Below, piece after piece: positions 8,948 to 53,751 of a stretch of 56,279 nt of DNA. This DNA comes from a virus. The stretch is from positions 1 through 56,279 of IMG/VR virus record IMGVR_UViG_3300027365_000016; one strand, given 5' to 3'. Below the pieces are notes generated by a model, which saw nothing but the letters and a program-made list of their open reading frames with translations, did no database searches and was not told the origin of the DNA. Within the stretch, counting starts at the first letter, position 1. The number at the start of each line of letters is the position of its first letter. The translations under genes were made by a program, and so were the position numbers.

Positions 8948-8955
8948 GGTACGTC

Positions 8956-10221: not shown

Positions 10222-10233
10222 GGAGCCGACATC

Positions 10234-10878: not shown

Positions 10879-10893
10879 GCCGATCCTGGACGG

Positions 10894-10914
10894 CGGCCCC
10901 TGCGGGGGCCGTTT
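10894..10914 (+). terminator. GC hairpin between DUF2815 and polymerase genes
   Basis: CGGCCCC, a TGC(G) loop and GGGGCCG form a 7-bp stem followed by TTT. With so short a T-run it may attenuate rather than end transcription of the downstream polymerase genes. Confidence 0.45.
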
Positions 10915-10940
10915 CTCTGCCCGACCGACGAGACGACGCC

Positions 10941-35691: not shown

Positions 35692-37386
35692 ATGGCGATG
35701 ATCATGGAGCCGTGGGTCGAGTGGTCGGCCGAATCCGTTCAGGGCGGCGATTCGCTGCCGGTGCCCGTGCCGGGGGCCGTCAGCCCTTATGCGATCGACC
35801 CGGCCTTGCCGGCATCAGGGTTCGGCGACAGACTGCCGGTGCCAGTGCGGCCGCAGGCCCGGGTAGCCGGCACGACCGGCGCCTCGCCGCTCGACGATAT
35901 TTACGACACGCTCTGGGTCGTGCCCGGCGAGATCAACGTCGGCAGCCTGACCGCGACGGTGAGTCGCGAGGTGGAGGTCTGGAACGCCTACCCGGGAGCG
36001 GACAAGACTCTCTCGGCGATCAGCGTGTCCGGCGGCGAAGGCATCAACGTCACCGGGCCGGCGGCCCCCCACACCTTCGCCCCCCTGGAGAGCCAGGTCT
36101 TTGCCGTCGAGGTGACCCCGGCCGGGCCGGCGACCATCGACGCGCGTTACGACCTGACCTTCGACGGCGTGACGAATGTGCCGTTCTGGACGGTGGTCGG
36201 CCGGCGCATCATCGAGTGGGATGTCCCGCCCAACTGGGCGGCCGGCTACAACGAGACCCTGTCTTTCAAGACCGAGGTGCTGACCGCCTTCGACGGCACG
36301 GAGCAACGCCTCGCTCTGCGCCACCGGCCGCGTCGCGAGATCGAGTTCGAGCCGGTCTTCGCGGGGGACGCCGGCCGGCGGGCGAAGCGGCTGCTCGCCA
36401 CCTGGCAGAACCGCAACTTTGCCATGGCCGACTGGGCCCGCGGCGTACATTGCGCCGGGCTCCCGGCCGGTACCACCTCGGTAACGCTCGATGAGCCGAT
36501 CCCGGAGCTCGCGGTCGGCGACCTGATCGTCCTGCGCGGCGAGGGTGTCTCCCAGGCGATCGAGGTCGCGGCGATCGACGGGCTCGAGATAACGCTCAAC
36601 TCGCCGGTAGCGGCCAGCTTCCCGGTGGGCACGCGCGCCTATCCCGGCCTGGTCGTTCACGCCGCGGCGTCGCTGACCGATCGTCGGCTGACCTCGGATG
36701 CCGGCCGGACCAGCATGCAGTTCCGCCAGGCTTACGCGACCGGGAAGCTGGATGCCGGCAGCGCCGCGACGACCTGGCGAGGCCTCGAGGTATTCCTGGC
36801 TCGGGCCAACTGGGCGCAGAATGTCGAGCTCGATCACGTATTCAACTTCACCTGGCTGGACAACGAGCGGGGGCTGTTCGCCTTCCGGACGCCGGAAGAC
36901 TCGCCCAAGGACGTGCGCAAGATCACCGTGCTCAGCGCCTCGCGCGGCGAGGTCCGGGCACTGACGGACTTCTTTAAGCGTTGTCGGGGGCGCCGCGGCG
37001 AGTTCTACGCCCCGACCTGGGATCTCGACCTGCGGGTGCCCGACGGCGAGGTGCTGCTCTCCGGGGGATTCACGCTGCCGGTCAGCGACACCGGCGAGGT
37101 GGACCGGGTCGGGCAGGATCTCGTCTACCGCAACCTGTACGTGCGGCTTACCGATGGCACCGAGCTCTTCCGGCGGGTGACATCGGCGGACCTCGGCCCG
37201 GACGGCACGCCACGGCTGGCCCTCGACGCCGGCTGGCCGCGCAACGTCAAGGCTCACGAGGTCGCGTTGATCTGCTGGATGCCGCGCTGCCGGCTGGCCA
37301 GTGACCAACTGACCATCGAGTGGAAGACCGACGGGCTGGCGGAAGCCAGCATCGCCATGCAGACGCTGGAGGATCCCGACGAATGA
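35692..37386 (+). CDS. Large distal tail protein (564 aa)
   Basis: Two likely domains. An N-terminal Ig-like or beta-sandwich half follows (LWVVPGEINVGSLTATVSREVEVWNAYPGADKTLSAISVSGGEGINVTGPA). The C-terminal half contains RRVTSADLGPDGTPRLALDAGWPRNVKAHEVALICWMPRCRLASDQLTIEW. It starts 2 bp after its neighbour and its stop overlaps the next gene's start, so all are co-translated. Probably part of the tail tip or hub. No specific family is claimed. Confidence 0.7.
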   Translation: MAMIMEPWVEWSAESVQGGDSLPVPVPGAVSPYAIDPALPASGFGDRLPVPVRPQARVAGTTGASPLDDIYDTLWVVPGEINVGSLTATVSREVEVWNAYPGADKTLSAISVSGGEGINVTGPAAPHTFAPLESQVFAVEVTPAGPATIDARYDLTFDGVTNVPFWTVVGRRIIEWDVPPNWAAGYNETLSFKTEVLTAFDGTEQRLALRHRPRREIEFEPVFAGDAGRRAKRLLATWQNRNFAMADWARGVHCAGLPAGTTSVTLDEPIPELAVGDLIVLRGEGVSQAIEVAAIDGLEITLNSPVAASFPVGTRAYPGLVVHAAASLTDRRLTSDAGRTSMQFRQAYATGKLDAGSAATTWRGLEVFLARANWAQNVELDHVFNFTWLDNERGLFAFRTPEDSPKDVRKITVLSASRGEVRALTDFFKRCRGRRGEFYAPTWDLDLRVPDGEVLLSGGFTLPVSDTGEVDRVGQDLVYRNLYVRLTDGTELFRRVTSADLGPDGTPRLALDAGWPRNVKAHEVALICWMPRCRLASDQLTIEWKTDGLAEASIAMQTLEDPDE

Positions 37387-38231
37387 CCAACAACGAGATC
37401 GAGATCAGCGACGCGCTCGGCGAGCCGATCGACCTTTATCAGTTCTCCTACGGGGCAGGGTCGGCGACCCGGCTGCTCTACTGCGACTCGGACTTCGAGA
37501 TCACCGTCGGCGCCGAGGTCTACTACCCCGGGTACATCGACCGGGACGCGATCAATACCTCGGGCAGCCTCGACAAGTCGGAGCTCGAGGTGACCGTGGC
37601 CGAGGACTCGCACATCGCCGAGTGGTTCCTGGTCTACCCGCCCTCCGAGGTGGTCGGACTGGTGATCTCGCGCTGTCACTATGACGATAGCACCGGCGAA
37701 GCGACAACTCCGCAGGTGATGTGGTCGGGACGGGTGCTGGCCTGCTCCCGCGAGGGCTACAACGCGAAGCTGCGTTGCGAGCCGGTGGCGACCTCGATGC
37801 GCCGCGTCGGCCTGAGACGGCACTACCAGTACATGTGTCCGCACGTCCTCTACGGCACCGACTGCCGGGCCAGTCGAGTCGCCAACACGACGGGCAATAC
37901 CGCTCGGGCCGTCGGCCCGCGCACGGTCAAGGTGGACGGCAACGTGGGCGATCAGTACCGCGGCGGCATGCTCTCCTGGACGCCTGTCGGCAAGCCCGTG
38001 GAGCGGCGCACCGTGCTCAACGTCAGCTACGACGACACCAGCAATCAGACCCTGCTGACCGTGGCCGGTAACCCGACGACGCTGAACCCGGGTGACTCGG
38101 TCGAACTGGCCAAGGGGTGCCGGCACACGCTCGACGATTGCCACGGGGTCTTCGACAACGCGGTGAATTTCGGCGGTATGCCGTACATCCCGACGCAAAA
38201 TCCGCATGGCACGACGTCGATCTATACCTGA
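37383..38231 (+). CDS. DUF2163/BR0599-type phage tail protein (282 aa)
   Basis: The ATG at 37383 overlaps the previous stop (ATGA). The N terminus reads IDLYQFSYGAGSATRLLYCDSDFEITVGAEVYYPGYIDRDAINTSG. The C-terminal signature has MCPHVLYGTDCRAS and CRHTLDDCHGVFDNAVNFGGMPYIPTQNP, typical of DUF2163 tail proteins, whose Cys residues may bind metal. In related phages this gene precedes the tail-tip J-like gene, as here. Confidence 0.85.
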   Translation: MTNNEIEISDALGEPIDLYQFSYGAGSATRLLYCDSDFEITVGAEVYYPGYIDRDAINTSGSLDKSELEVTVAEDSHIAEWFLVYPPSEVVGLVISRCHYDDSTGEATTPQVMWSGRVLACSREGYNAKLRCEPVATSMRRVGLRRHYQYMCPHVLYGTDCRASRVANTTGNTARAVGPRTVKVDGNVGDQYRGGMLSWTPVGKPVERRTVLNVSYDDTSNQTLLTVAGNPTTLNPGDSVELAKGCRHTLDDCHGVFDNAVNFGGMPYIPTQNPHGTTSIYT

Positions 38232-38235
38232 TAAT

Positions 38236-38250
38236 GCAACCATAAGTTGC
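38236..38250 (+). promoter_or_regulatory. Operator-like palindrome within the tail operon
   Basis: GCAACCATAAGTTGC keeps the CAAC..GTTG core with G/C outer bases, like the copy at 50335. It occupies the 42-bp gap before the gene at 38274, upstream of its GAGG ribosome binding site. Confidence 0.45.
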
Positions 38251-38273
38251 TTTTTCGACTGACGAGGTGAGCG

Positions 38274-38501
38274 ATGGGATTCTGGTTCGCGCTGGCGATG
38301 ACGCTGATCTTCAACGTGATCTCTTACATCCTGCGCCCCAAGCCGGATACCTCTGGGGACTGGCAGTCCCAGGACCTGCGGGCGCCGACCGCCGATGCCG
38401 GCAAGCCGGTACCGGTGGTGTTCGGCGAGATAACCGTCGTCTCGCCCAACGTGATGTTCTACGGCGACATCGACAAGGACGACTACGAGGTGGATGCATG
38501 A
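38274..38501 (+). CDS. Small tail-tip-associated membrane-like protein (75 aa)
   Basis: One N-terminal hydrophobic segment (FWFALAMTLIFNVISYIL), then a hydrophilic stretch PKPDTSGDWQSQDLRAPTADAGKPVPVVFGEITVVSPNVMFYGDID. The PVPVVFG segment resembles the start of J-like tail-tip proteins, so this may be a split N-terminal piece or an assembly partner of the 782-residue tip protein. GAGGTGAGC lies before the ATG. Confidence 0.65.
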   Translation: MGFWFALAMTLIFNVISYILRPKPDTSGDWQSQDLRAPTADAGKPVPVVFGEITVVSPNVMFYGDIDKDDYEVDA

Positions 38502-38692
38502 CGGTGACCATCGACGATATTCGCCGATTCCACTGCACGCGCGGGATCCGGCGCTGGTTCGAGAGTCAGGGCCTGGACTTCCGGGCATTCCTGTGCAGCG
38601 GCATCGCCGCCGATCGGTTGCTCGCGACCGGGGACGCTCGGGCTAAGCAGGTGATCGACGCCAAACGGGCTGCGCAGGAGGCGGATCGGTGA
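38498..38692 (+). CDS. Small tail-region protein of unknown function (64 aa)
   Basis: The ATG overlaps the preceding TGA. The product (MTVTIDDIRRFHCTRGIRRW, then FESQGLDFRAFLCSGIAADR) is a small soluble helical protein of a type often found just before tail-tip genes. It overlaps the GTG of the next gene by 4 bases. The function is not established. Confidence 0.68.
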   Translation: MTVTIDDIRRFHCTRGIRRWFESQGLDFRAFLCSGIAADRLLATGDARAKQVIDAKRAAQEADR

Positions 38693-41037
38693 GCATCGGA
38701 GGCGGCGGCGATGCCAAGCAGTCGGTCACCGACTATTTCGCGTCGGTCCATTACGGCGTGTGCGCCGGGCCGGTGGATGCCGTTACGCAAGTCTGGTACG
38801 GCGAGAAGCTGGCATGGAAGGGCAACGTCACCGGCTCGCAGGCGGTCGCCATCGACAAGGAAGGGCTGTTCGGCGGCAACAAGTCCGAGGGAGGGCTGGT
38901 CGGCACACTGGAGATGCTGCTCGGTAACGACGACCAGGTTCTGCCTGCGTCCGCCGTCGAGGTGCTGCGTCGCAACGGGGCGACCGGCCAGACCGACCCG
39001 CAGAAGGTGCCGGCCTATCGTAAGATCCTGTCGGTGTTCATGCACGGTGGATCCGAGGGCGCCAATATCGGCTCGAACACGGGCTACATCAAGGCGTTCT
39101 GGTTTCGCGTTCGTCGGGCCCCCAAAGGCTGCCCGTTCGAGCCGACAATCATCGTCAACGACATGCACCTGGCTAACCCGGCGGCGATCATCTGGGAGTG
39201 CCTGGCCAACGGCGTGTGGGGCATGGGCGCCCCGGTCAGTTTGATCGACGCCGATTCGTTCGTCGCCGCGGCGCAGACCCTCGCGAACGAGAAATTCGGC
39301 CTGGCGATGATGTGGAAGGAGCAGGAGTCGATCGAGGACTTCGTCGCCCGGGTACTCGACCACATCGAGGGGTCGCTGGCCGTCGACCCGTTCACCGGGC
39401 TGTTCCGCCTCAAGCTGGTTCGCGACGACTACAACGTCGAGGACCTGCCGGTCTTCGGGCCGCACAACGCTCGGCTCAACAGCTTCGAGCGCCGGGCCTG
39501 GGGCGAGACCACCAACGAGATTAACGTGTCGTGGACCAACCCGGAGAACGAACAGACGGAGACCGTCACCGTCCACGACACCGCCAACGTCAACCTGCAG
39601 GGCGGCACGGTGGTCTCCGAGACCAAGAACTACTCCGGTATCCGCGACGTCGACCTGGCATTGCGCACCGCGACGCGCGACCTGCTGGCTTCGGCGTCGG
39701 CCCTCGCCAGTGCCGAATTGCAGGTCAATCGCCAGGCGTGGCGGATCCTGCCCGGCGACGTGATTGCCTTGACCTGGCCGGCTTACGATTACGAAAGGGT
39801 CCCGATGCGAGTGTCGAGTGTCGACTACGGCAAGCCCGGCGACAGCACGATCACGCTCTCGCTGCTCGAGGATGTCTTCGGCATGCCGGCCCAGACGTAT
39901 GTCGAGTCGACCGGCTCGGCCTGGGTCAACCCGGCTGTTCAGCCGTCGTCGCTGCCCTACCGGCAGGTCACCTCGGTTCCCTACTACGTGGCGGTCCAGA
40001 AGGCCGGCGAGGCGGCGAGCGAGGCGATCGCGGATACCTCCGACTACGACGTGGCGTTCGGCTCCCACCCGCAGCGTGGCGTGTTCAAGTTTGATCTGGC
40101 GGTCCAGCAACCCGACGCCAACGGGGATCTCGCCTGGGTCGGCCGCGGATCGGCAAATCTTTCCGCCTACGGGGCGCTGCTCGACGACCTGCCGGCGGAG
40201 ACCACCAGCGTCATACCTGAGATCGACGATCTGGTGCAGGGCGGTCGAGCGATCGCCGGCGCGCTGGCATGGATCGGCCCCGTCGACCAGACCGGCGAAC
40301 TCGCGCTGATCAAGGCCGTGGACGGTACCGGCTATACCCTGACCCGCGGCGTGCTGGATACCGTACCCAAGGCCTGGCCGGCGTCGACCCCGGTTTGGAT
40401 CATCCCGGCGGCGTCATGGGCGACCACCGGCATCGAGCGGGCGATCGGCGAGACGGCCTCGATGCGCTTTCTGCCGACGACGGCGCTGGGCCGGCTGGCA
40501 ATCGGCGACGCCAGCGACGTCACCGGCAGCATGTCCGGCCGTTTGCACCGGCCCTACCGGCCGGCGAAGGTGCAGATCGCCGGAGAAACCTGGCCGTCGG
40601 CGGAGACGGCACGCAGTTTCCCTCTCACCGTTACATGGGTCGGCCGCAACCGGCTCGAGGAGACGACGCTGGTCAACGACTGGGAGGACGGCGCGGTCGC
40701 CCCCGAGGACGGCGTCACCTACACGGTGGAACTGTTCGGCGAGGACGGCGCGGGCAACGTCACCAGCTACCACGTCGAGGACGTAGGCACGGCCACCAGC
40801 TACTCGATCGACGTGGCAGCCGACCCGCCCCCGGCCGGGGCGGTGTATTTGCAGATCGAGGTCCGCTCGGTACGCGACGGGCTGGCCTGCTGGCAGGCGA
40901 TCCGCCATCGCATACGCCTGTTTAACCCGCCGAGCACCATCAACGCCGTCCGCATCGACCTCTACGGGCCCGGCGACCTGCTGGCCGCCGCCATCGACCT
41001 CATCGCCCCCACCGATATCACCGCCACGGAGACCTGA
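38689..41037 (+). CDS. Tail tip protein, J-like (782 aa)
   Basis: A large central-tail-tip protein. The opening GGGGDAKQSVTDYFASVHYGVCAGPVDAVTQVWYGEKLAWKG, the middle GFKxAG-type region and a C-terminal set of beta-domains fit J-like host-specificity proteins. The C-terminal beta-domains (TWVGRNRLEETTLVNDWEDG, LFGEDGAGNVTSYHVEDV) resemble fibronectin-like or carbohydrate-binding modules. The GTG start overlaps the upstream stop. It ends 1 bp before the DGR target gene, so the diversified protein is made with the tip and probably attaches to it. Confidence 0.82.
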   Translation: MSIGGGGDAKQSVTDYFASVHYGVCAGPVDAVTQVWYGEKLAWKGNVTGSQAVAIDKEGLFGGNKSEGGLVGTLEMLLGNDDQVLPASAVEVLRRNGATGQTDPQKVPAYRKILSVFMHGGSEGANIGSNTGYIKAFWFRVRRAPKGCPFEPTIIVNDMHLANPAAIIWECLANGVWGMGAPVSLIDADSFVAAAQTLANEKFGLAMMWKEQESIEDFVARVLDHIEGSLAVDPFTGLFRLKLVRDDYNVEDLPVFGPHNARLNSFERRAWGETTNEINVSWTNPENEQTETVTVHDTANVNLQGGTVVSETKNYSGIRDVDLALRTATRDLLASASALASAELQVNRQAWRILPGDVIALTWPAYDYERVPMRVSSVDYGKPGDSTITLSLLEDVFGMPAQTYVESTGSAWVNPAVQPSSLPYRQVTSVPYYVAVQKAGEAASEAIADTSDYDVAFGSHPQRGVFKFDLAVQQPDANGDLAWVGRGSANLSAYGALLDDLPAETTSVIPEIDDLVQGGRAIAGALAWIGPVDQTGELALIKAVDGTGYTLTRGVLDTVPKAWPASTPVWIIPAASWATTGIERAIGETASMRFLPTTALGRLAIGDASDVTGSMSGRLHRPYRPAKVQIAGETWPSAETARSFPLTVTWVGRNRLEETTLVNDWEDGAVAPEDGVTYTVELFGEDGAGNVTSYHVEDVGTATSYSIDVAADPPPAGAVYLQIEVRSVRDGLACWQAIRHRIRLFNPPSTINAVRIDLYGPGDLLAAAIDLIAPTDITATET

Positions 41038-41038
41038 C

Positions 41039-41788
41039 ATGGCCCTCAACATCACCTGGACCGACACCAACGAAAGCGAAGACGGCTACAACGTCTATAT
41101 CCGCGACACCCCGATGACCTGGCCCAGCGACGTGCCGGCACCGGTCGTCACCAATGCCGACACGACATCCTACGCCGCCAACGTGGACACCACGGTGGAT
41201 CAATATGTGATCGTCACCGCTGTCAAAGGCGGAATCGAGGTCGCCGCCGAACAGGTCCACTTCGACCCCGCGGGTTCTGGCGGAGGCGGCACCGACGACT
41301 TCTCAAGCGCGCAGATCGGCGACCGGATCGGCGGCGGGATCTATGCAGGCATCGACACTATCGGCGGCACCGATTACCACATCGTCTCAGGCGACGCCGC
41401 TTCCGAGGCATACGGGCTGGAGTGGAAGACCTCGCGCACGACGACCTCGGGAACCGGCAGCGACACCGACGGCCTGGCCAACACCCAGGCGATGGAAGCG
41501 GCAGGCATCGCCGATCACCCGGCGGCGCAGCACTGCGTCAACTACACCGGCGGCGGGCACACCGACTGGCACATGCCGGCGCACAGCCAGCTCACGCTGA
41601 TGTATGGCAACCTGGCCGGCCACGCCGAGTTCGCCGATAACGTCAGCTCCGGCGATTACACCTGGGCTTCCACGGAGTACTCGTCGACCAACGCCTGGGG
41701 TCTGAGGTTCTCCGACGGTAACGAGAGCACCGGCGGCAAGGACGCCACCATTCTACGGGTTCGTCCGGTCCGCAGGGTCGCGGTTTAA
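41039..41788 (+). CDS. DGR target protein: variable C-type-lectin-fold receptor-binding protein (249 aa)
   Basis: The N-terminal 78 residues look like a fibronectin III-type domain (LNITWTDTNESEDGYNVYIRD), probably the virion anchor. A GSGGGG linker at about residues 80-85 leads to a C-type-lectin-like domain of the DUF1566/formylglycine-type group. It shows GLEWKTSRTTT, HTDWHMPAHSQLTLMYGNL, and the hallmark YTWASTEYSSTNAW..RFSDGN...K....RVRPVRR at the C terminus. The last 36 codons are the variable repeat. The natural role would be to bind a changing host receptor. GGAG 7 bases before the ATG supports the start. Next to the tail-tip gene, this is the usual site of a phage DGR target. Confidence 0.93.
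   Translation: MALNITWTDTNESEDGYNVYIRDTPMTWPSDVPAPVVTNADTTSYAANVDTTVDQYVIVTAVKGGIEVAAEQVHFDPAGSGGGGTDDFSSAQIGDRIGGGIYAGIDTIGGTDYHIVSGDAASEAYGLEWKTSRTTTSGTGSDTDGLANTQAMEAAGIADHPAAQHCVNYTGGGHTDWHMPAHSQLTLMYGNLAGHAEFADNVSSGDYTWASTEYSSTNAWGLRFSDGNESTGGKDATILRVRPVRRVAV
41671..41777 (+). repeat. DGR variable repeat (VR)
   Basis: A 107-bp copy of the template repeat at +728 bp. It differs at 15 positions. Thirteen correspond to adenines in the template: 41678, 41688, 41700, 41727, 41730, 41732, 41733, 41735, 41736, 41744, 41745, 41751 and 41775. Two are G-to-T: 41703 and 41754. The invariant GC-rich 3' end (41756-41773) is the expected initiation-of-homing region. The substitutions fall mostly in Asn codons of the template, changing Asn to Tyr, Thr, Ser, Gly, Ala or Ile. 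Confidence 0.95.
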
Positions 41789-41795
41789 TTCTCAG

Positions 41796-41815
41796 CCGGC
41801 GCCGACAGGCGCCGG
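41796..41815 (+). promoter_or_regulatory. DGR target-site hairpin (8-bp stem, GACA loop)
   Basis: CCGGCGCC, GACA and GGCGCCGG form a perfect 8-bp stem with a 4-nt loop, 19 bp after the VR end and 8 bp after the stop codon. In the Bordetella phage DGR a similar downstream hairpin or cruciform with a GRNA tetraloop stimulates target-site recognition; GACA fits GRNA. Confidence 0.85.
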
Positions 41816-41822
41816 TACTCAC

Positions 41823-41839
41823 GCCGGGCGCAGCCCGGC
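41823..41839 (+). promoter_or_regulatory. Second hairpin before avd
   Basis: GCCGGGC, GCA and GCCCGGC form a 7-bp stem with a 3-nt loop, 7 bp after the DGR hairpin and just upstream of the avd ribosome binding site. No T-run follows, so it is not an obvious terminator. It could modulate avd translation or act as part of the target structure. Confidence 0.55.
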
Positions 41840-41851
41840 TAAGGCGAGGAC

Positions 41852-42238
41852 GTGTCCAGCATCACCCAACACCTTCCGATCTACAGGACCACCTATGCGC
41901 TGCTGCAGGTGGTGATGAAGGGTCTCAAGCACTTCTCGCGAGACCTTCGCCCCACTCTCGGCAACCGCCTCCTCAACGAAGTGCTGCGGCTGATCACCGC
42001 GATCTACCGCGCCCGAGCCACCCGGGATGACCGTTCGCGGGTTAAGCATCTTCGTGCTATATTAGAAACTATTGAAGTTGTCGAGCCGCTGCTGCAACTG
42101 TGTCATGACATGCAGCTCCTCCCGCGCGAGGTCTACGCGGAGACGGTCGAGCTCACCAGCAGCATCGGTCGCCAGGCCGGGGGCTGGTTACGTGACGCCC
42201 AGCAAAGCCTCGACGACCGCCCGTTGCATGCCGGGTAG
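41852..42238 (+). CDS. avd: Avd, accessory variability determinant (128 aa)
   Basis: Avd forms a pentameric four-helix-bundle barrel that binds the DGR reverse transcriptase and template RNA. The 128-residue length equals that of the Bordetella phage protein. It is highly helical and basic (YRTTYALLQVVMKGLKHFSRDLRPTLGNRLLNEVLRLITAIYRARATRDDRSRVKHLRAILETIE, then LLPREVYAETVELTSSIGRQAGGWL), matching the Avd/23S-intervening-protein fold. It starts at GTG preceded by AAGGCGAGG. Order target-avd-TR-RT is canonical. Confidence 0.92.
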   Translation: MSSITQHLPIYRTTYALLQVVMKGLKHFSRDLRPTLGNRLLNEVLRLITAIYRARATRDDRSRVKHLRAILETIEVVEPLLQLCHDMQLLPREVYAETVELTSSIGRQAGGWLRDAQQSLDDRPLHAG

Positions 42239-42398
42239 TGCCGGCGCCCGTTCTATGGCGGCTACGGCTGCCTCAGCAGTGCGCATTACCTGGTCGCGCC
42301 CATGCCACAAGGCATGACAGGCCCCTCCCGCGGTAGGGGCAACTTCCCGGCTGATCGGCACTGCCTTCGGCGGGGCGGCGTGAAGGCGCGATGAAACT
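42239..42398 (+). ncRNA. Non-coding spacer upstream of TR, likely part of the DGR RNA
   Basis: 160 bp between avd and TR without a credible ORF. It contains short inverted repeats (for example CATGCC / GGCATG near 42300-42316, and CCCCTCCCGCGGTAGGGG near 42322-42339) consistent with a folded RNA leader. In characterised DGRs the template RNA includes sequence flanking TR needed for cDNA priming. Confidence 0.6.
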
Positions 42399-42505
42399 CA
42401 CGGAGAACTCGTCGAACAACGCCTGGGATCGGAGGTTCTCCGACGGTAACGAGAACAACAACAACAAGGACAACACCAATCGACGGGTTCGTCCGGTCCG
42501 CAAGT
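42399..42505 (+). repeat. DGR template repeat (TR)
   Basis: The 107-bp unmutated template. It reads in frame as ENSSNNAWDRRFSDGN, ENNNNKDNTN and RRVRPVRK, then stop, so adenines are concentrated in Asn (AAC) codons, including four AAC in a row. By my count 33 of 107 bases are A and 13 of these differ in VR. It ends 18 bp before the reverse transcriptase start, so the RNA 3' spacer would overlap the RT leader as in the Bordetella phage. Confidence 0.95.
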
Positions 42506-42523
42506 AATCAGGATGCTCCCGGC

Positions 42524-43660
42524 ATGCAGCCCACGTTCCAGGAAGTCACGCTCGCCTACCTCGACTGCCGCCGGCACAAGCGCAGCACCGAAGCTGCTAT
42601 GCACTTCGAGAATCACCTGGCAGGCAACCTTCGGCGACTGCACGGCGAGCTATGTGACGGCAGCTACCGGATCGGCCCATCTCGCTGTTTCGTGGTGCTG
42701 CACCCCAAGCCCCGTGAGGTGTGGGCGGGTGCCTTCAGGGACCGGATCGTCCACCACCTGGCCTACAACCGGCTGTCGCCCAAGGCGTATCGCACTTTCT
42801 CCGCCGATTCTTGCGCGTGCATCCCGGGGCGGGGCACCCTCTACGGTGCCAACCGGTTAGGGGGTCACATTCGCTCGGCGACCAAGAACTGGTCGAAGCG
42901 GGTCTACTACCTCAAGATGGACCTCAGCAACTTCTTCGTCAGCATCCACAAACCGACCCTGGCGAACTTGCTGGAGCCTTTGTTCGAGGACGACTTCACC
43001 CGTGATCTGGCACGGCAGATTCTCTTTCACGACCCCACGCGATCCGTCGAGATTCGCAGCCCGCGCTGGAAGATGAACCGGGTGCCGCGCCACAAGAGCC
43101 TGTTCAACGCTCCGCACGGCTGCGGCCTAGCCATCGGCAACCTGCCCTCCCAGTTCGAGGCCAACGTCTACCTGAATCTGCTTGACCAGTTGGTCAACCA
43201 TCGGCTCAAGCCCGCCGGTTATATCCGCTATGTCGACGACTTCATCCTGCTGCACGAGGACCGCGACTGGTTGCTGTCCGCCCAGGCGCAGATCGAGGCG
43301 TTCCTATGGCAGCGCCTGCGGCTCCAGGCCAACCCACGCAAGACGGTGATCAACACCTGTGAGCGAGGCGTCGATTTCGTGGGGCAGGTGATCAAGCCCT
43401 GGCACCGGGTCGCCCGGAGCACCCTATACCCCGCCGCGAAACGAGCGATACGCCAGGCGCCCGACGACACGACACGCTGCGCCTCGGCCAACAGCTATTT
43501 GGGTATTCTGGGTCAGACGGCCAGCTACCGACAACGGGTGGCGCTTTGCGAAACGGCCGCGGCCTACGGGCACCCGGTTGACCCGGAGAGGCGGAAGGTG
43601 CTCGCCGAGCAGAAACCGGCTGCGACTCAGCCTGCACCTGCGCTAGGCTCACGGCAGTAA
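42524..43660 (+). CDS. DGR-type reverse transcriptase (378 aa)
   Basis: Copies TR RNA into adenine-mutagenised cDNA for transfer into VR. RT motifs are complete. Motif A is YYLKMDLSNFFVSI (Asp, about residue 133). Motif B carries the DGR signature GLAIGNLPSQFEANVYLN (IGNLPSQ where retrons and introns have QG). Motif C is the catalytic YVDDFILL (about 233). Motif D/E lies in RLQANPRKTVINTCERGVDFVGQVI. No maturase, nuclease or thumb extension typical of group II introns is present. The ATG lies just after TR. Confidence 0.95.
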   Translation: MQPTFQEVTLAYLDCRRHKRSTEAAMHFENHLAGNLRRLHGELCDGSYRIGPSRCFVVLHPKPREVWAGAFRDRIVHHLAYNRLSPKAYRTFSADSCACIPGRGTLYGANRLGGHIRSATKNWSKRVYYLKMDLSNFFVSIHKPTLANLLEPLFEDDFTRDLARQILFHDPTRSVEIRSPRWKMNRVPRHKSLFNAPHGCGLAIGNLPSQFEANVYLNLLDQLVNHRLKPAGYIRYVDDFILLHEDRDWLLSAQAQIEAFLWQRLRLQANPRKTVINTCERGVDFVGQVIKPWHRVARSTLYPAAKRAIRQAPDDTTRCASANSYLGILGQTASYRQRVALCETAAAYGHPVDPERRKVLAEQKPAATQPAPALGSRQ

Positions 43661-43685
43661 TGGTTCCGGTCGACGAGGGCATACT

Positions 43686-44036
43686 ATGCCGCCAGAAAGC
43701 ATCGAGCAGCGACTCTCCGATCTCGCGACCTCCCAGGTCCAACTCGACGGGAAGGTCACCGCCATCAGCAAGAACATGGAAGAGATCAACGTCACCCTCG
43801 GCCAGGTGGCGGAGGCGCTGACCACGATTGCCGTACAAGGCGAGCAGGTCATGGCGCTGCGGCGAACCGTTGACCAACTCACCGGCGACATGAAGGTCCT
43901 CACGGATCGGCAGCGGGAACTCGAAGTCGAGGTGGCCCAGAACACGGCGCTGCGGACCTGGTCGTTCCGGCTGGCTCTGGGCGGGGCGATCGCCGTCGTC
44001 GGCTTCGTCTGGAAGAAGGTCACCGACGGCATTTGA
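43686..44036 (+). CDS. Coiled-coil protein with C-terminal membrane helix, XhlA-like (116 aa)
   Basis: A helical coiled coil (residues 5-85, Ile/Leu/Val heptads with TISK/TVDQLTGDMKVLTDRQRELEVEVAQNT) is followed by one transmembrane helix near the end (SFRLALGGAIAVVGFVW). The layout resembles hemolysin XhlA/holin-accessory proteins, which assist lysis. It lies 25 bp after the DGR reverse transcriptase with a GAGGG ribosome binding site, and could instead be a DGR passenger. Undecided. Confidence 0.7.
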   Translation: MPPESIEQRLSDLATSQVQLDGKVTAISKNMEEINVTLGQVAEALTTIAVQGEQVMALRRTVDQLTGDMKVLTDRQRELEVEVAQNTALRTWSFRLALGGAIAVVGFVWKKVTDGI

Positions 44037-44044
44037 CCGCAGTT

Positions 44045-44059
44045 TCAACTATTTGTTGA
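44045..44059. promoter_or_regulatory. Operator palindrome between convergent genes
   Basis: TCAACTATTTGTTGA overlaps the stop codon of the minus-strand gene 44049-44279 and follows the plus-strand gene by 8 bp. No promoter is expected in such a place. This recalls stoperators (repressor sites away from promoters) in some temperate phages. Confidence 0.5.
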
Positions 44060-44279
44060 ATTTACGCCGACGCTTACGCGGCTTCTCGAAGTGGGTCGGT
44101 CGAACTACCAGGAAGGCCAGCATCGGCAGCCATAGGGCGCAGAGCAGCATCGCGCTGAACAGCGGCTTCACCTTGCGCTCGCGCAGCGCCGGCCGGGACA
44201 TCGGGTGACGAGCGACCACGGCCAGGGCAAAGGCCACGGCCAGGGCGCCGCCGGCGTACATCGTGATCAGGGCGTTCAT
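44049..44279 (-). CDS. Small membrane protein (76 aa)
   Basis: Two hydrophobic segments are visible (about residues 4-23 and 42-60), followed by a strongly basic C-terminal tail (FEKPRKRRRKFNK). It is the last gene of the long minus-strand operon. GGAG lies 7 bases before the ATG, which abuts the stop of the upstream gene. Its role is unknown. Confidence 0.6.
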   Translation of the reverse strand: MNALITMYAGGALAVAFALAVVARHPMSRPALRERKVKPLFSAMLLCALWLPMLAFLVVRPTHFEKPRKRRRKFNK

Positions 44280-44408
44280 TCAGGTCTCCAGATAGAGCGC
44301 GGTCAGCGCGACAAGCAGGGACAGGGCGAGCAAGCGGCCCCGCCAGACGGGGAACACGAGTGCGTCGATCAGCAGGACGAGACTGGTCACTCCGAGCAGG
44401 GCCGGCAT
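44280..44408 (-). CDS. Very small membrane protein (42 aa)
   Basis: The ATG at 44408 starts MPALLGVTSLVLLIDALVFP, then WRGRLLALSLLVALTALYLET: two short hydrophobic helices with little else. A longer ORF upstream lacks support because it would overlap the neighbour entirely. It is directly adjacent to another small membrane gene, so they may act together. Function unknown. Confidence 0.5.
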   Translation of the reverse strand: MPALLGVTSLVLLIDALVFPVWRGRLLALSLLVALTALYLET

Positions 44409-44410
44409 GG

Positions 44411-44590
44411 TTATCTCCCGGTGTCGGGGTCGTTGTTGTCGCGGACCGCGAGCGTGGCGTGATAGACCGTGTCGCACCATCGACATTGTCGCGTCTCGTG
44501 GCGCTGCCCGGTGTACGGGCTGAGGTAGGTCTCAAGGACCCGGTATTCGCACCGGGTCGGGGCCTCGCAGGACGAGTCACGGCGGGGCAT
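44411..44590 (-). CDS. Small Cys-rich, zinc-ribbon-like protein (59 aa)
   Basis: The ATG at 44590 gives MPRRDSSCEAPTRCEYRVLE, then RQCRWCDTVYHATLAVRDNN. Four Cys residues in C..C and CxxC arrangement could bind zinc. The start shares a base with the preceding stop. Function unknown; it may be a regulator or small nucleic-acid binding protein. Confidence 0.55.
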   Translation of the reverse strand: MPRRDSSCEAPTRCEYRVLETYLSPYTGQRHETRQCRWCDTVYHATLAVRDNNDPDTGR

Positions 44591-45192
44591 CAGGCGGCCT
44601 CGACTCGAGTCATCTTCGCCAGGAACTGGACGAGGGGTTTCGACCAGACCCGTCCATCCTCGCCTCGGTAGCAGACAGTGATCGGGTAGCCGGGGCGCTG
44701 GCTGTTCGTGTTGGTGACCAGTTCGACGCGATACCGTTTGCCGTTCTCGTGACGGTAGGTGTCCCACACTACGGGTATCCGGGGCGGCTCGAAGCCCCGC
44801 TCGAGCGGAGAATCGGCGGCGGCTTGCGGGGCTTGCTCGTTCGCTTCCAGGCGCCGGATCGCCTCGTCGCAGATCAGTAGAATCTCGACCTCGCCGCCCG
44901 CGAACTTGTCCTCGTGCTCGTCGATCAGCAGTCCGCCAACCCAGGCAGCCCCCTCGGAACGCTTGGCGTAGTCGCGCGAAGCGAGGTTGTCCTCGGGCGC
45001 CGAATTGAGCGCCGACATGACGTGCGGGCTGTCGGCAAGGTGGCTGTTGCTGATGATGTTCTCCAGCATCCTTGCGCGCGTCGACATGGCGGCTAGCTGG
45101 TCGGTCGTCTCTTCAAGCTGCACACAGACTCGGTCGAGATCATCGTTCTCGGCGCGGGCCCGATCGCTGGGCCATACGAAGTCGTTAGACAC
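44590..45192 (-). CDS. Phage protein with DUF1653-like C terminus (200 aa)
   Basis: The N-terminal half has a coiled coil (ENDDLDRVCVQLEETTDQLAAMSTRARMLEN) with no known family. The C-terminal 55 residues (WDTYRHENGKRYRVELVTNTNSQRPGYPITVCYRGEDGRVWSKPLVQFLAKM) match the DUF1653 pattern of Y+H.NG+.Y.V and a final W+RPL..F. It is part of the long minus operon, preceded by AGGAGA. Its role is unknown. Confidence 0.62.
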   Translation of the reverse strand: MSNDFVWPSDRARAENDDLDRVCVQLEETTDQLAAMSTRARMLENIISNSHLADSPHVMSALNSAPEDNLASRDYAKRSEGAAWVGGLLIDEHEDKFAGGEVEILLICDEAIRRLEANEQAPQAAADSPLERGFEPPRIPVVWDTYRHENGKRYRVELVTNTNSQRPGYPITVCYRGEDGRVWSKPLVQFLAKMTRVEAA

Positions 45193-45211
45193 GGGGTTCT
45201 CCTTTCGCTGT

Positions 45212-45436
45212 TCAGTGGTCGCCGTCTATCGGGTCGGCGTCGAGGGTATTGCCGTCGGTGTCTATCTCCTGGGCGTACCATTCGACGTTCTCCAGCGCGG
45301 CCTCGCGCACGGCATCTTCCCGTTGCTGGGTTGTCATCGCGTCCCAGTCCTCGCGCGGCATGCCGATTTCATCGGTCGTGACGCAGCCGACCAGACCCAT
45401 TCGGGTCGTGACGCGAATACGAATACCGTCAGGCAC
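45212..45436 (-). CDS. Small acidic phage protein (74 aa)
   Basis: The sequence MPDGIRIRVTTRMGLVGCVTT, then EDWDAMTTQQREDAVREAALENVEWYAQEID, resembles short phage proteins with a beta-hairpin then a helix. The ATG overlaps the preceding gene's end by 8 bp. Function unknown. Confidence 0.55.
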   Translation of the reverse strand: MPDGIRIRVTTRMGLVGCVTTDEIGMPREDWDAMTTQQREDAVREAALENVEWYAQEIDTDGNTLDADPIDGDH

Positions 45437-45827
45437 GGGGGCTCTCCTTTCGCGATTGGCGAATCTCGTCGCGGCGTTCGCAGACGCGTTGCCAGGTGGC
45501 GCAGAAGCCGCAGGGTTGATTGGCGCGGTCGCCGTTGTCCCAGTCCCAGAAGCCGGGGACGCTATGCGAGTGCCCCGGGGCCTGACTGGAATCTCGGCAG
45601 TGGCGGTGCTTGTCTTCGAGGTGGCTCATCAGCGCGAGCAGCAGCACGCGATCCCGGTGAGAGTCATCGTGGGCGGTGTCGCGCTGCTCGTAGAGCTCGC
45701 CCAGGCGGATCCGCTGGGTCTCCATCTCGGCATAGGCCTCGGTAAGAGCCTTGTCGGCCGTGAGGCACCGCCGGGCCAGTTCGTCCTTCGTCAGGCGCAT
45801 CAGATCGCGCTTGGTTTCGGTGGTCAT
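45429..45827 (-). CDS. Phage protein with coiled coil and Cys/His cluster (132 aa)
   Basis: The N-terminal 65 residues form a helix (DELARRCLTADKALTEAYAEMETQRIRLGELYEQRD). The C-terminal part has HRHCRDSSQAPGHSHSVPGFWDWDNGDRANQPCGFCATWQRVCERR, a possible metal site. The 4-base overlap with its upstream partner indicates coupled translation. No family was recognised. Confidence 0.55.
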   Translation of the reverse strand: MTTETKRDLMRLTKDELARRCLTADKALTEAYAEMETQRIRLGELYEQRDTAHDDSHRDRVLLLALMSHLEDKHRHCRDSSQAPGHSHSVPGFWDWDNGDRANQPCGFCATWQRVCERRDEIRQSRKESPRA

Positions 45828-46546
45828 GACATGTCCTCGGCTTGGCGGCGTTCCGCGATACGTTCGATCTTGGCGGCGCGTTCCATGAGGAAACGAGCGG
45901 CTTCGCTATTGCCCATTTCCAGGGCCGCAGATTTCAGCGCCTCCGCCTTGGCTTGGGCGATGATGCGGGCGAGGCTGGTTTCGGGAGTTTCGTCCAGCAA
46001 GTCTCGCATCCAGCTCCAGCGCAGCGTCGAGAATGCCCGCACATACCCTTCACGTAGCCGCTCCACATACGCCGCCAGCGCGACGCGCTCGGCAAAAGCC
46101 TCAAGCAAGACGCTGACGGAATCGACCACACTGGCCGGCAAAGTGCCGGCGTCAATGTGTGGCTGCAGAATCTCGGCGGCTTGCCAGTAGTGCTCAGATG
46201 CCGCCCGCGGGTCGCCGGATAGCGATCGGTCTTCCAGTTCTGCGGTCAGTGTATCTACCTTCGCCGCCATCGCGTCGCGCTCGTCAGCCCAAGCAACATA
46301 GTCGCGGCCCAGTTCCTCGCCTCTGGCCTGATGCTCCTGCCCGATGGATGGACGGCCCGCGGCGTAGCGCTCGACGTTGGCCCAGGTCTCCTCATAGATC
46401 GGCTCCCAGTCAGGCTCGACGACCACACACTCACGGGTGCGTATGTCCTTTACGGACAGATAGCGGCGCAAGTCCTTTTGGTCTGCTTCCGCCAGATCCG
46501 CCAGCTTCACGACGATATAGCGTTCTTCACGTTGAAAGTCGCTCAT
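45824..46546 (-). CDS. Phage protein of unknown function (240 aa)
   Basis: Mostly helical and charged, with YSVKD-like KLADLAEADQKDLRRYLSVKDIRTRECVVVEPDWEPIYEETWANVERY near the N terminus and a long helical C-terminal half (about residues 90-235). It has no membrane segment. It overlaps both neighbours by 4 bases. Function unknown. Confidence 0.55.
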   Translation of the reverse strand: MSDFQREERYIVVKLADLAEADQKDLRRYLSVKDIRTRECVVVEPDWEPIYEETWANVERYAAGRPSIGQEHQARGEELGRDYVAWADERDAMAAKVDTLTAELEDRSLSGDPRAASEHYWQAAEILQPHIDAGTLPASVVDSVSVLLEAFAERVALAAYVERLREGYVRAFSTLRWSWMRDLLDETPETSLARIIAQAKAEALKSAALEMGNSEAARFLMERAAKIERIAERRQAEDMS

Positions 46547-46740
46547 TCCACATCCTCCCCTTGCGCTTGGCGGCGGTTATTCCTGTTACGGTCCGTGGCT
46601 TCTGAGTTCTTTCGGATAGCCCACATTTTCACCGGCCGGCCGATTTCATGCGACGCTACTCGTAACCAGTCACTTAAGGTAAACAGGGTTATCTGAACCT
46701 TATCCACGGTTAGGTAAACGATTTCATACCGCTTAATCAT
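46543..46740 (-). CDS. Small basic phage protein (65 aa)
   Basis: The ATG at 46740 begins MIKRYEIVYLTVDKVQITLF, then DWLRVASHEIGRPVKMWAIR, a small alpha/beta fold with basic C terminus. A longer upstream ORF is rejected because it covers the neighbouring gene. Its start and the upstream gene's stop overlap by 4 bases. Codon use here is less GC-biased than the surroundings. Function unknown. Confidence 0.5.
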   Translation of the reverse strand: MIKRYEIVYLTVDKVQITLFTLSDWLRVASHEIGRPVKMWAIRKNSEATDRNRNNRRQAQGEDVE

Positions 46741-46979
46741 TGCTCGTTCTCCGGTAGTTCGGTGCCGGCCCGTCTCGCGGAATACCCTTTGGCTACGATG
46801 TCGATTGCAATTTCCGAGAGCGTCGATCGCCAGACCTCCACGCCGTTCTTGCAGCACGCCACGCCGGCGATTCCACCGGCGTCGTCGTAGATGATCTCGG
46901 CAGAGCAACGATTGGATAGCGGCCCGTGAACTTTCTCGAAAAGCCTCAAGACTTCCGCCTCTTCCAGCAGGAGCATCAC
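46737..46979 (-). CDS. Small phage protein (80 aa)
   Basis: Soluble alpha/beta protein with four hydrophobic-charged segments (MMLLLEEAEVLRLFEKVHGP, then EIIYDDAGGIAGVACCKNGVEVWRSTLSEIAIDIVAKG). It overlaps the next and previous genes by 4 bases each. Function unknown. Confidence 0.52.
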   Translation of the reverse strand: MMLLLEEAEVLRLFEKVHGPLSNRCSAEIIYDDAGGIAGVACCKNGVEVWRSTLSEIAIDIVAKGYSARRAGTELPENEQ

Positions 46980-47293
46980 TCTTCTCCGTCGTCGATTTCG
47001 GGTTTTAGCACCGCCGCTACCTCCTCGCCCAGCGAGTCGACCTCGGCCTGCCAGCGGCTAATCTGGGTCTCGATGACCCGCTTGATCAGGTCGTTATCGA
47101 TGTTGGCGGTGACGACAGGACCTCTATGTATCGGGACGGCGATCTGGAGGACTCCTGTGTCCGGGACCTGCTGCAGGCAGGCCTCTCCCCGGGATATGCG
47201 GTCGCGCAGAGTCTGACGACGGGTGACCTTCTCCCAGGCTTCCTGGAGGCGCTGCTCTATCTTGTCGATGTTCCGGCGGCATTCGTGGCTCAT
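46976..47293 (-). CDS. Small phage protein with helical ends (105 aa)
   Basis: Helical N and C termini flank a short beta segment (ACLQQVPDTGVLQIAVPIHRGPVVTANIDNDLIKRVIETQ). It begins MSHECRRNIDKIEQRLQEAWEKV. It is coupled to its neighbours by 4-base overlaps. Function unknown. Confidence 0.52.
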   Translation of the reverse strand: MSHECRRNIDKIEQRLQEAWEKVTRRQTLRDRISRGEACLQQVPDTGVLQIAVPIHRGPVVTANIDNDLIKRVIETQISRWQAEVDSLGEEVAAVLKPEIDDGEE

Positions 47294-47775
47294 GGCAGTG
47301 GCTCCCAGCGGGTAAGGGGTTGATCAGCGCGGATATACAGCGGGTGCCTCGGGGCGCCGGACTTCGTGGACCCGAGACACCAGAGCCGGGCTCCGACCTC
47401 GGACAGGGCCTCCGCGACCTCCGCCACCCGTTCGGTCCTGGCGTTGGCGCCCCAGGCGCAAATCACGTCACCGTGCTCACGGGCGAGACGGGCGAGCCAG
47501 CTATCGTTTTCCGGGCCGACCGGATCATCCTGCAGCCATAAGTCCTTCGGGTGGGTCGCGCGAAAGGCGTAGAGATTGGCCACGATCAGGCCGTTGCACC
47601 CCCAGGTCTTCGCGAAGCCCCGGCAACGACGGATGGTCGGGTCATCCATCTCGGCGTCGGCGGTACTCGGGTTGAGCATCAGGAACAAAGCGGTGCTGCG
47701 CTCCGGGTTATCGACTTCGCTCGGCCGGCTGAGGACATAGCGGTACCGGCCGCAGGAACTGATGACCGCGCTCAC
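47290..47775 (-). CDS. DUF1643 family protein (161 aa)
   Basis: Recognised by CGRYRYVLSRPSEVDNPERSTALFLMLNPSTADAEMDDPTIRRCRGFAKTWGCNGLIVANLYAFRATHPKDL, with the LMLNPSTAD..DDPT and NLYAFRATHP signatures. DUF1643 proteins occur in phages and bacteria; their activity is not known to me. The later IICAWGANARTERV and LGSTKSGAPRHPLYI segments complete the fold, which resembles a nucleotide-binding alpha/beta protein. It overlaps RdgC by 4 bases. Confidence 0.88.
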   Translation of the reverse strand: MSAVISSCGRYRYVLSRPSEVDNPERSTALFLMLNPSTADAEMDDPTIRRCRGFAKTWGCNGLIVANLYAFRATHPKDLWLQDDPVGPENDSWLARLAREHGDVICAWGANARTERVAEVAEALSEVGARLWCLGSTKSGAPRHPLYIRADQPLTRWEPLP

Positions 47776-51459: not shown

Positions 51460-51765
51460 CCGCGGTGATCCGAGGGGGCTGAAACCCGAGGTTTTCAACA
51501 GCCCCCAGAACGGCCCCCTCGGAAAAAGCAGTATCCATAACCGACTGTTAATTAAAGGATTTTATTTAACTTCGGAGGTGATTGGATGTCAGATTTCCCA
51601 TTGGTTTCAAGCTGTTTCACCTTGTTTCAATACCCTTCCTGAACCCTCGCCGTTGACGTATTCTATGCTGTAAGTTGTTTCACGTTGTTGCAGGTAGTTT
51701 CACTCCTACAGCCCCCGGCAAAGGGTCACAACAGCCCCCACGCCCTGATCGCTTACAGCCCCCTT
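51460..51765 (+). promoter_or_regulatory. Integrase control region and candidate attP arms
   Basis: No gene is present. It contains GGGGGCTG (51474) and CAGCCCCC (51499) as an 8-bp inverted repeat, and ACAGCCCCC at 51498, 51708, 51731 and 51755, the last three at 23-24 bp spacing. An inverted copy also lies at 51217. A second word, GTTTCA, repeats at 51604, 51614 and 51624 (10-bp steps) and at 51677 and 51697. AT-rich DNA lies at 51540-51600. Such repeats fit integrase/excisionase arm sites and an attP core, but the core itself is not identified. Confidence 0.5.
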
Positions 51766-53001
51766 ATGCTCACTGACAAGAAGCTGAAATCTCTCAAGCC
51801 CCGGGACAAGGAGTACACGGTCTCGGATAACGACAGCAGCCGCGGGCAAGGCCGCCTGGTGATCCGGGTGCGGCCGAGCGGCGCCAAGGACTGGCTCTAT
51901 TTCTACTATGTCGACGGCAAGCGTCGTAAAAAGGCGCTGGGCAAGTACCCCGTGGTCTCGCTCAGCCTCGCCCGGCAGAAGGCCGCCGAGCGGGCCGAGG
52001 AGGTGGCCGACACCGGTTACATCGCCGAAGTCACCGAGCCGGCGGAGATCGGGTCCGTGGGCGAGTTGCTAACCGCATACGTCGAGGACCTGCGCGACCG
52101 CGGCAAGCGATCCGCCGATGACGTCGAGCGGTTTTTCCGCTGCTATATCGAGCGCCCTGCACCGGCTCTATGGGCAAAGCCGGCCAACGAGGCCACGCCG
52201 CACGACTTCCGCGACGTGCTGGCCCGGCACATCAAGCGCGGCGTGACGACCGCAGTCAATCGGGTCCGGGCGAATCTCCATGCCGCCTACCAATTCGCGC
52301 TGCAGGCAGAGTTCAACCCGCGGTCGCCTGGCGGCCGGCACTGGGGCCTAACCAGCAACCCGATCTCGCTGATCCCGCTGCAAGCGGACTACGAGCGCCA
52401 GGGCGAGCGCGTACTCGAGCCGGGCGAGGTAAAGGCGTTCTGGCAGGGGATCGGCAAGACGGTCAGCGTGGGGCCTCAATGCGCAGCCCTGGCGCGTCTC
52501 TGCGTGGCTACGGCCGGGCAGCGCCCGACCTCGCTGCTACGCCTGCGTGTCGAGGATCTGGACTTCGACAAGGGTCTGGTATCGGTGCCGCCGGAGTCGA
52601 CGAAGACCGGCAAGCCTCACGTCTTTCCGATGAACCGGCATTCGCGGCGGCTGCTGAGCGGTCTGGCGGCCCAGGCGAAAGACAACGGCGAGGCCCGGCT
52701 GTTCGCGAGCTCGCACAAGAAGGACAGCGCGTTGAACGTCCGGACCCTGAGTACGGCGATCGGCACATACCGCGAGCAGCACAAGGCCAAGCACTGGACG
52801 CTACGCGACGTTCGCCGCACGGCGAAGACGATCCTCGGGCAGCGGGGCATCCCGAAGGAAGATCGCGACCGGCTGCACGGCCATGCGAAGCACGACGTCT
52901 CGAGCAAGCACTACGATCGGTACGACTACCTCCCTGAGAAGCGCAAGGCGATGGCTGCCTGGGAGACTTGGCTCGACGATGTGCTGGAGACGACCAAGTA
53001 G
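51766..53001 (+). CDS. int: Tyrosine integrase with DUF4102 N-terminal domain (411 aa)
   Basis: A P4-type site-specific recombinase for integrating and excising the phage genome. The N-terminal arm-binding domain is MLTDKKLKSLKPRDKEYTVSD, then RVRPSGAKDWLYFYYVDGKRRKKALGKYP. The catalytic domain shows AGQRPTSLLRLRVEDLDF (Arg I), ESTKTGKPH (Lys), RDVRRT (Arg II), LHGHAKHD (His) and SSKHYDRYDYL (nucleophilic Tyr). The usual HDLRR reads RDVRR here, as in some P4-type integrases. The ATG at 51766 is chosen because upstream in-frame starts give an unrelated leader. Confidence 0.92.
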   Translation: MLTDKKLKSLKPRDKEYTVSDNDSSRGQGRLVIRVRPSGAKDWLYFYYVDGKRRKKALGKYPVVSLSLARQKAAERAEEVADTGYIAEVTEPAEIGSVGELLTAYVEDLRDRGKRSADDVERFFRCYIERPAPALWAKPANEATPHDFRDVLARHIKRGVTTAVNRVRANLHAAYQFALQAEFNPRSPGGRHWGLTSNPISLIPLQADYERQGERVLEPGEVKAFWQGIGKTVSVGPQCAALARLCVATAGQRPTSLLRLRVEDLDFDKGLVSVPPESTKTGKPHVFPMNRHSRRLLSGLAAQAKDNGEARLFASSHKKDSALNVRTLSTAIGTYREQHKAKHWTLRDVRRTAKTILGQRGIPKEDRDRLHGHAKHDVSSKHYDRYDYLPEKRKAMAAWETWLDDVLETTK

Positions 53002-53478: not shown

Positions 53479-53751
53479 ATGCCCGATGGCCCCCGCGGCG
53501 ACCTGGGCCGCAAGGTTCGTGCAATCCGTGAATCCGAAGGTCTGGGGCGTCAGGCTTTCAGCGATCTCACGGGGATCCCCAAGCAGACCCTGATCAACAT
53601 CGAGAATTGCCGCAGCGCCCCCACCGGCGATCACCTGGCGAGGGTCTGCAGTGCTTTCGAGCAGTACACGCTCTGGCTGATGACGGATCGTACGATCGAC
53701 GCCGCCGACCAGGTGCGCCCCTCCTCCTCCGAGACTCCCTGCACCGGCTGA
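53479..53751 (+). CDS. XRE-family helix-turn-helix regulator (90 aa)
   Basis: An N-terminal XRE HTH (LGRKVRAIRESEGLGRQAFSDLTGIPKQTLINIENCRSAPTGDHLARVCSAFEQYTLWLMT, residues 9-68) like small transcriptional repressors of phage or toxin-antitoxin systems. The gene is bracketed by two pairs of 22-bp direct repeats, which could be its binding sites. Its stop lies within the third repeat. It is a plausible local regulator, not obviously connected to the CI-like protein. Confidence 0.75.
   Translation: MPDGPRGDLGRKVRAIRESEGLGRQAFSDLTGIPKQTLINIENCRSAPTGDHLARVCSAFEQYTLWLMTDRTIDAADQVRPSSSETPCTG

Follow-up and report, generated by a model that had tools for sequence, protein, structure and literature searches.

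A diversity-generating retroelement behind the tail-tip gene of a temperate siphophage, with an RT-15 RNA directly upstream of its template repeat

The retroelement, its repeats and its activity

Few known systems diversify proteins in a targeted manner as fast as diversity-generating retroelements (DGRs). In the 56,279-nucleotide stretch of viral DNA analysed here (positions 1 to 56,279 of IMG/VR record IMGVR_UViG_3300027365_000016, hereafter the window), a DGR lies directly behind a J-like tail-tip gene and comprises a target gene containing the variable repeat (VR), two hairpins, the accessory gene avd, a structured RNA of the RT-15 family, the template repeat (TR) and a reverse transcriptase (RT) gene (Table 1). 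An earlier note, made from the sequence alone, had recognised the target, avd and a DGR-type RT with the motifs IGNLPSQ and YVDD, both of which are in the sequence, and Pfam and PHROGs profiles bear this out; the best solved relative of the RT is the reverse transcriptase 8ub7 (5.8e-31). A retron RT was considered and rejected, because the enzyme groups with DGR RTs (phrog_1423 and the RT tree) and a TR/VR pair is present; no retron msr/msd was matched in the window, where these were looked for through Rfam only. The element is almost certainly a complete DGR of functional type. The earlier note had also called its order canonical, and while completeness stands, that word hides two departures from the model DGR of phage BPP-1, namely the RT-15 RNA and the absence of a spacer 3' of the TR. 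Overall, the locus is best explained as a DGR that diversifies a receptor-binding lectin of the tail tip, with RT-15 as a 5' domain of its template RNA, a reading that we hold to be likely.

Table 1. Features of the retroelement and selected phage genes in the window.
Feature	Coordinates	Strand	Evidence
J-like tail-tip protein, 782 aa	38689..41037	+	Pfam Phage-tail_3 4e-17; phrog_1101 tail protein 4e-213; weaker phrog_31 'central tail fiber J' 3.9e-9
DGR target protein, 249 aa, contains VR	41039..41788	+	phrog_4245 3.9e-31 over residues 89-247
N-terminal Ig/FN3-like anchor, residues 1-78, weakly supported	41039..41272	+	Kre9_KNH below cut-off; PDB Fn3-like 3mpc
Gly-Ser linker GSGGGG, residues 79-84	41273..41290	+	translation
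C-type-lectin-fold domain (Lcl_C/DUF1566), residues 85-249	41291..41785	+	Pfam Lcl_C 1.8e-9; AlphaFold2; Foldseek
VR, 106 bp	41671-41776	+	repeat alignment
GC-rich hairpin, GRNA-type loop GACA, ~20 bp after VR	41795..41816	+	DNA fold z -5.3
Second hairpin, 7-bp stem, GCA loop	41823..41839	+	fold; GCA loop recurs behind relatives' VRs
avd, accessory protein, 128 aa, GTG start	41852..42238	+	Pfam bAvd 5.5e-11; phrog_3206 'Avd protein of DGR' 1.1e-21
RT-15 structured RNA (Rfam RF03018), proposed 5' domain of DGR template RNA	42242..42398	+	covariance model; covariation
TR, 106 bp, 33 adenines	42399-42504	+	repeat alignment
DGR reverse transcriptase, 378 aa, 19 nt after TR	42524..43660	+	RVT_1 1.3e-10; phrog_1423 2e-89
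Tyrosine integrase	51685..53001	+	phrog_1 2.5e-53; Phage_integrase 1.5e-15; Arm-DNA-bind_3 1.1e-13
Small transcriptional regulator, repressor/Cro type	53479..53751	+	phrog_147 1.4e-19

The VR and TR lie 728 bp apart and differ at 15 of 106 positions. As the earlier note had stated, 13 of these 15 differences (87%) are at TR adenines and 13 of the 33 TR adenines are changed (hypergeometric p ~1e-5); the repeat length of 107 bp given there needs correction, base 107 being already mismatched. Adenines of the VR are not among the differences, and all 13 adenine-site changes fall in codon positions 1 or 2. The two remaining differences have T in the VR (41703, 41754) and G in the TR (42431, 42482), in CGN/CTN codons. 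At 87%, the pair lies above the DGR criterion of at least 75% of TR/VR mismatches at TR adenines (PMC8144416). No second VR was found on either strand of the window. When further genomes were compared, TR/VR pairs were present at 152 of 161 loci with related RTs, and the pairs of these 152 loci show the same bias, with 3,792 mismatches at A and 64 at other bases. The chance that the pair is an ordinary repeat diverged by drift, for which only the two non-adenine differences speak, is negligible given this bias in the window and at the 152 loci.

Comparison of related elements, which the earlier note had proposed, revealed VR differences at adenine sites with a constant TR in four pairs. Between L078 and L095, 3,328 bp hold 19 differences, which are confined to TR-adenine sites of a single VR; the second VR and all other sequence match. 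The pair shows very clearly a DGR at work on a single target in nature. In the other pairs the TR is unchanged, and the VR differences at TR adenines amount to 14/14 in L003/L004, 14/14 in L026/L028, and 16/16 and 13/13 in L043/L047. Judged from these comparisons, the relatives have demonstrably diversified in nature.

The DGR of the window is complete and, from its sequence, probably functional, and the evidence on its current activity is mixed. It may be a fading copy, with genes intact but without homing for some time, whose tail lectin is effectively fixed; we consider this a somewhat unlikely state. The sole other copy found, L002 (IMG/VR contig 3300009194_000038), matches the window at 100% over 11.4 kb (36524-47931), the VR included; the record therefore exists twice, and L002 is uninformative as population evidence, its identical VR being at most compatible with a fading copy. 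Both non-adenine differences read G in the TR and T in the VR. At codon 239, the TRs of relatives encode Leu/Phe, as does the window VR, which suggests that the altered repeat is the TR of the window. At codon 222, a CAG as in the sister group could account for both the CTG of the VR (A-to-T) and the CGG of the TR (mutation). It is likely, on these codon comparisons, that the TR has changed since the last transfer. When the best VR of each locus is taken, the window is the only one of 151 loci with at least two non-A mismatches; this count favours other loci, which mostly have two VRs where the window has one, and two or more such mismatches also occur in 2.7% of all TR/VR pairs compared. Against a fading copy, RT, Avd, TR and RT-15 are all intact, and 39% of the TR adenines are changed, near the family median of 43%.

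Behind the VR, the GRNA-type hairpin described in the earlier note is real and fits the stem, loop and distance pattern of BPP-1-like target sites, in which a GC-rich GRNA-loop hairpin follows the VR at 4-34 bp (PMC3240598). It is not a shared feature of the RT family: a perfect GRNA-loop stem of at least 6 bp follows 6 of the 296 VRs examined (2%), and we rejected it as a conserved part of these elements. Hairpins with any loop and a stem of at least 7 bp occur behind 21% of VRs, as against 2.5% of random sites. In the 60 nt behind the VRs of relatives there is a tract of about 30 nt, poor in G and rich in T, with ATTTAA in 39% of cases, compared with 0.7% of random sites, and this tract is possibly a recognition element on the VR side. 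In the corresponding part of the window (41777-41806), only GGTTTAATTCTC is kept of that tract, ahead of the hairpins.

RT-15 and the layout around the template

The window matches the full RT-15 model (positions 1-192) with 91.6 bits (gathering score 82; E 1.6e-21). RT-15 fills the 160-nt gap between avd and the TR, and its last base directly precedes the TR; in the 22 relatives measured, the offset between the two ranges from -7 to +1 nt. RT-15 is present in 98 of 100 records with in-group RTs (23/23, 36/36, 36/38 and 3/3; some are near-duplicates). It was absent from BPP-1, Aeromonas phage phiWae15, Bacteroides phage F2, VP58.5, Bise, FP_Lagaffe and 14 control genomes. For an unbiased survey, 298 Pseudomonadaceae genomes were drawn evenly: all 21 RT-15 copies above the cut-off stand at a DGR RT with an A-biased TR/VR pair, and three sub-threshold matches do not stand at a DGR. 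Aligning the window with 20 relatives gave standard pairs in 94% of base-pair cells. Both partners have changed in 23 of the 36 pairs, against a mean of 12.9 after shuffling, where 0 of 500 shuffles reached that number; sliding the structure gave 2-12.

The presence of RT-15 goes with a different spacing around the template. At 152 of 152 loci of the RT-15 branch, no more than 26 nt separate TR and RT (19 nt in the window), and the avd-TR gap has a median of 163 nt. In BPP-1, by contrast, avd and TR adjoin with 0 nt between them, and a 144-nt spacer lies between TR and RT; phiWae15, Bise and FP_Lagaffe have 18-34 nt before and 113-161 nt after the TR, and VP58.5 has a BPP-1-like plan by homology, its annotated RT start overlapping the TR. 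Overall, the avd-TR and TR-RT gaps of these five out-group phages are 0-34 nt and about 110-160 nt, respectively. The RT tree separates the RT-15 group from the same five phages at 100/100 support and joins the window RT with L003, L006 and L008, also at 100/100. The BPP-1 spacer behind the TR is a folded RNA that recruits bRT-Avd and provides the adenine from which the cDNA is primed (PMC12875486). No spacer of the BPP-1 type (~140 nt) is present between TR and RT in the window, and none was seen hidden inside the RT gene, where divergence at four-fold sites shows no clear drop over codons 1-40 (0.36-0.41) relative to the remaining codons. With the 3' spacer gone and none hidden in the RT start, RT-15 is the obvious candidate for its job, and we think that it is probably part of the template RNA, as a 5' structured domain that replaces the 3' spacer.

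Several observations weigh against this assignment. The RT-15 of the window has the lowest score of all members above the cut-off. One of the two in-group records without RT-15, L027, ends just upstream of the RT; the other, L011, has an in-group RT and no TR/VR pair in 8.6 kb, and looks like a broken or rearranged DGR. In Bacteroides phage F2 (L190), which lacks RT-15, TR and RT are only 38 nt apart and avd and TR 128 nt; the phage falls inside the RT-15 group on a very long branch, and its place is unsure. The layout of F2 possibly reflects another, unmodelled 5' leader RNA in Bacteroidetes DGRs. Finally, no covarying pairing between RT-15 and the TR was found. Consensus folding proposed a long-range pairing of RT-15 UCUGGU with TR ACCAGA, which is nearly invariant, shows no compensatory changes and is broken in the window TR, and a pairing of the TR 3' end with the RT start, likewise nearly invariant and without compensatory changes; both were rejected.

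RT-15 could instead be a cis-regulatory RNA, a leader or attenuator of the RT gene or the avd-RT operon that stands outside the template ribonucleoprotein; priming would then depend on something else, perhaps a nicked template RNA or the short stretch joining TR and RT. In favour of this, RT-15 occupies the RT gene's 5' untranslated region and is classed by Rfam as an independent small RNA (sRNA) gene. We consider this unlikely, given that RT-15 is joined to the TR within a few nucleotides in 23 of 23 measured cases rather than to the RT start, that the TR always lies between RT-15 and the RT, and that RT-15 goes with the loss of the 3' spacer.

With RT-15 as a template-RNA domain, RT-15 and the TR would be transcribed as one RNA. 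RT-Avd would bind the folded RT-15 domain, which would assume the docking, and possibly the priming, role of the ~140-nt spacer of BPP-1, because a spacer behind the TR is absent in this branch, and would reverse-transcribe the TR, making errors at adenines. The resulting cDNA would then replace the VR, guided by the common 3' end (..GTCCGCA) and by an element on the VR side that the TR lacks, altering the lectin face and, with it, receptor binding. A bolder version, which we put forward tentatively as somewhat less than an even prospect, is that the whole DGR branch uses a "circularly permuted" template RNA, whose RT-recruiting and cDNA-priming domain lies 5' of the template, as in retrons.

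We found no literature that names RT-15 as a DGR RNA, although the original RT-15 and DGR survey papers (Weinberg 2017, Wu 2018) possibly mention it. In GenBank, the 'RT-15' beside the RT of Pseudomonas phage Cruim01 is annotated as a separate misc_RNA. Those original surveys aside, the association of RT-15 with the TR, its exclusivity and the lost 3' spacer make up a variant architecture undescribed in the literature searched.

The target protein and its place in the tail

The target gene begins 1 nt after the J-like gene, homologues of whose product occur in 758 phage records. Structure prediction, named as a check in the earlier note, gave the C-type lectin fold expected there: the AlphaFold2 model, built with 44 aligned DGR targets, is confident (pLDDT 90-98 over residues 91-249), and its top Foldseek match in the PDB is the C-terminal domain of Legionella Lcl (8q4e, prob 1.00), followed mostly by C-type lectins. 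The proposed architecture of a fibronectin-like anchor, a Gly linker and a lectin holds for linker and lectin, whereas the FN3-like identity of the N-terminus met weak matches only in Pfam and PDB sequence searches (Kre9_KNH at 0.006 in one search and 0.021 in another, both below cut-off; 3mpc at E 0.91), and AlphaFold2 confidence is low for the first 78 residues. The N-terminus is 40% identical over 42 aa to a protein encoded two genes behind J in L200, which has the closest J relative (57%) and no DGR; a pattern scan of IMG/VR found no relatives beyond L002's own contig. DGR genes occur in none of the other 39 J relatives examined, and within the DNA fetched, a J of the window type occurs beside no other RT relative except in the identical contig. 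The simplest history is that a mobile cassette of lectin, avd, RT-15, TR and RT was joined to a resident tail protein.

We consider it likely that the tail lectin is receptor-binding. The target might otherwise be a separate secreted or decorating lectin and no receptor-binding part of the tail, a quite unlikely reading to which the relatives lend some weight: the RT-15 DGRs of Shewanella phage vB_Sb_QDWS, Cruim01 and Burkholderia phage Magia lie among early or replication genes and have small targets, and the median target length among relatives is 197 aa. The position of the target 1 nt behind the J-like gene and its additional N-terminal domain, which resembles one behind a J without a DGR, argue against a non-tail lectin, as does the sister group L003-L008, with long multidomain targets near virion genes.

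The reading of the window as a temperate siphophage, also made in the earlier note, is a fair one and agrees with profile searches, which identified terminase, portal, major head and tail proteins, tape measure, the J-like protein, a repressor-like regulator and an integrase with its characteristic domains. No tRNA that could mark an attachment site was found in the search. The left part of the window carries replication genes on both strands; the stretches 8641-13070 and 4362-7217 hold a DUF2800 (PD-(D/E)XK-like) gene, a weak DNA polymerase A match and a primase/helicase.

Comparison with known systems and implications

The DGR of BPP-1 (mtd-avd-TR-brt) shares with the window the order of target with VR, avd, TR and RT, the A-specific TR/VR differences, a C-type lectin target at the tail and a GC hairpin with a GRNA-type loop behind the VR. 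It differs in having no RT-15, in its RT, which belongs to a different supported branch, and in its gaps of 0 and 144 nt before and after the TR, where the window has 160 nt with RT-15 and 19 nt. In Aeromonas phage phiWae15, a J homologue (36% identity, 2e-128) stands ahead of a C-lectin-type target, an avd-like gene, TR and RT. The arrangement of a lectin target directly behind a J-like gene is thus as the earlier note described it but is not new; the RT of phiWae15 is 34% identical, with a 142-nt TR-RT spacer and no RT-15.

In the case of the proteobacterial RT-15 DGRs of Cruim01, vB_Sb_QDWS and Magia, the likeness extends to the RT (~50% identity), Avd, an RT-15 beside the TR, the short TR-RT distance and the A-biased TR/VR pair. 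These cassettes lie outside the tail module, among early genes (SSB, RecT, methylase, integrase), and RT-15-linked DGRs usually have two small stand-alone targets, whereas the window has one fused tail target; at most of their loci (e.g. L061, L097, L052), two tandem small lectin targets are served from one TR. The sister group L003-L008 in IMG/VR is closer (RT 60-61%, one long multidomain Lcl_C target, the same spacing, RT-15) but belongs to other phage types that lack a J homologue and has other N-terminal domains and a TR that is nearly identical within the group and clearly unlike that of the window. The RNA itself is a full-length match to Rfam RF03018 above the gathering score, which Rfam lists as an sRNA. 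The retron msr-msd RNA offers an analogy only, that of a structured RNA 5' of the template with the RT downstream (PMC8867640); the window RT belongs to the DGR group, and its product would be a mutated homing cDNA and not msDNA.

In summary, a widespread DGR branch has no 3' spacer and, 5' of its template, a conserved RNA. To our knowledge, the priming mechanism of DGRs has been drawn from one model, that of BPP-1. If RT-15 is indeed part of the template RNA, the RT-15 family, to which no function had previously been assigned, would gain a likely one, and the branch would offer a direct test of how DGR RTs choose their start site, which would be of relevance to DGR engineering. If the template RNA is permuted, the geometry of cDNA priming would differ from that of the textbook DGR. 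As to ecology, the same cassette occurs with small non-tail lectin targets or, in the subclade of the window, fused to tail proteins.

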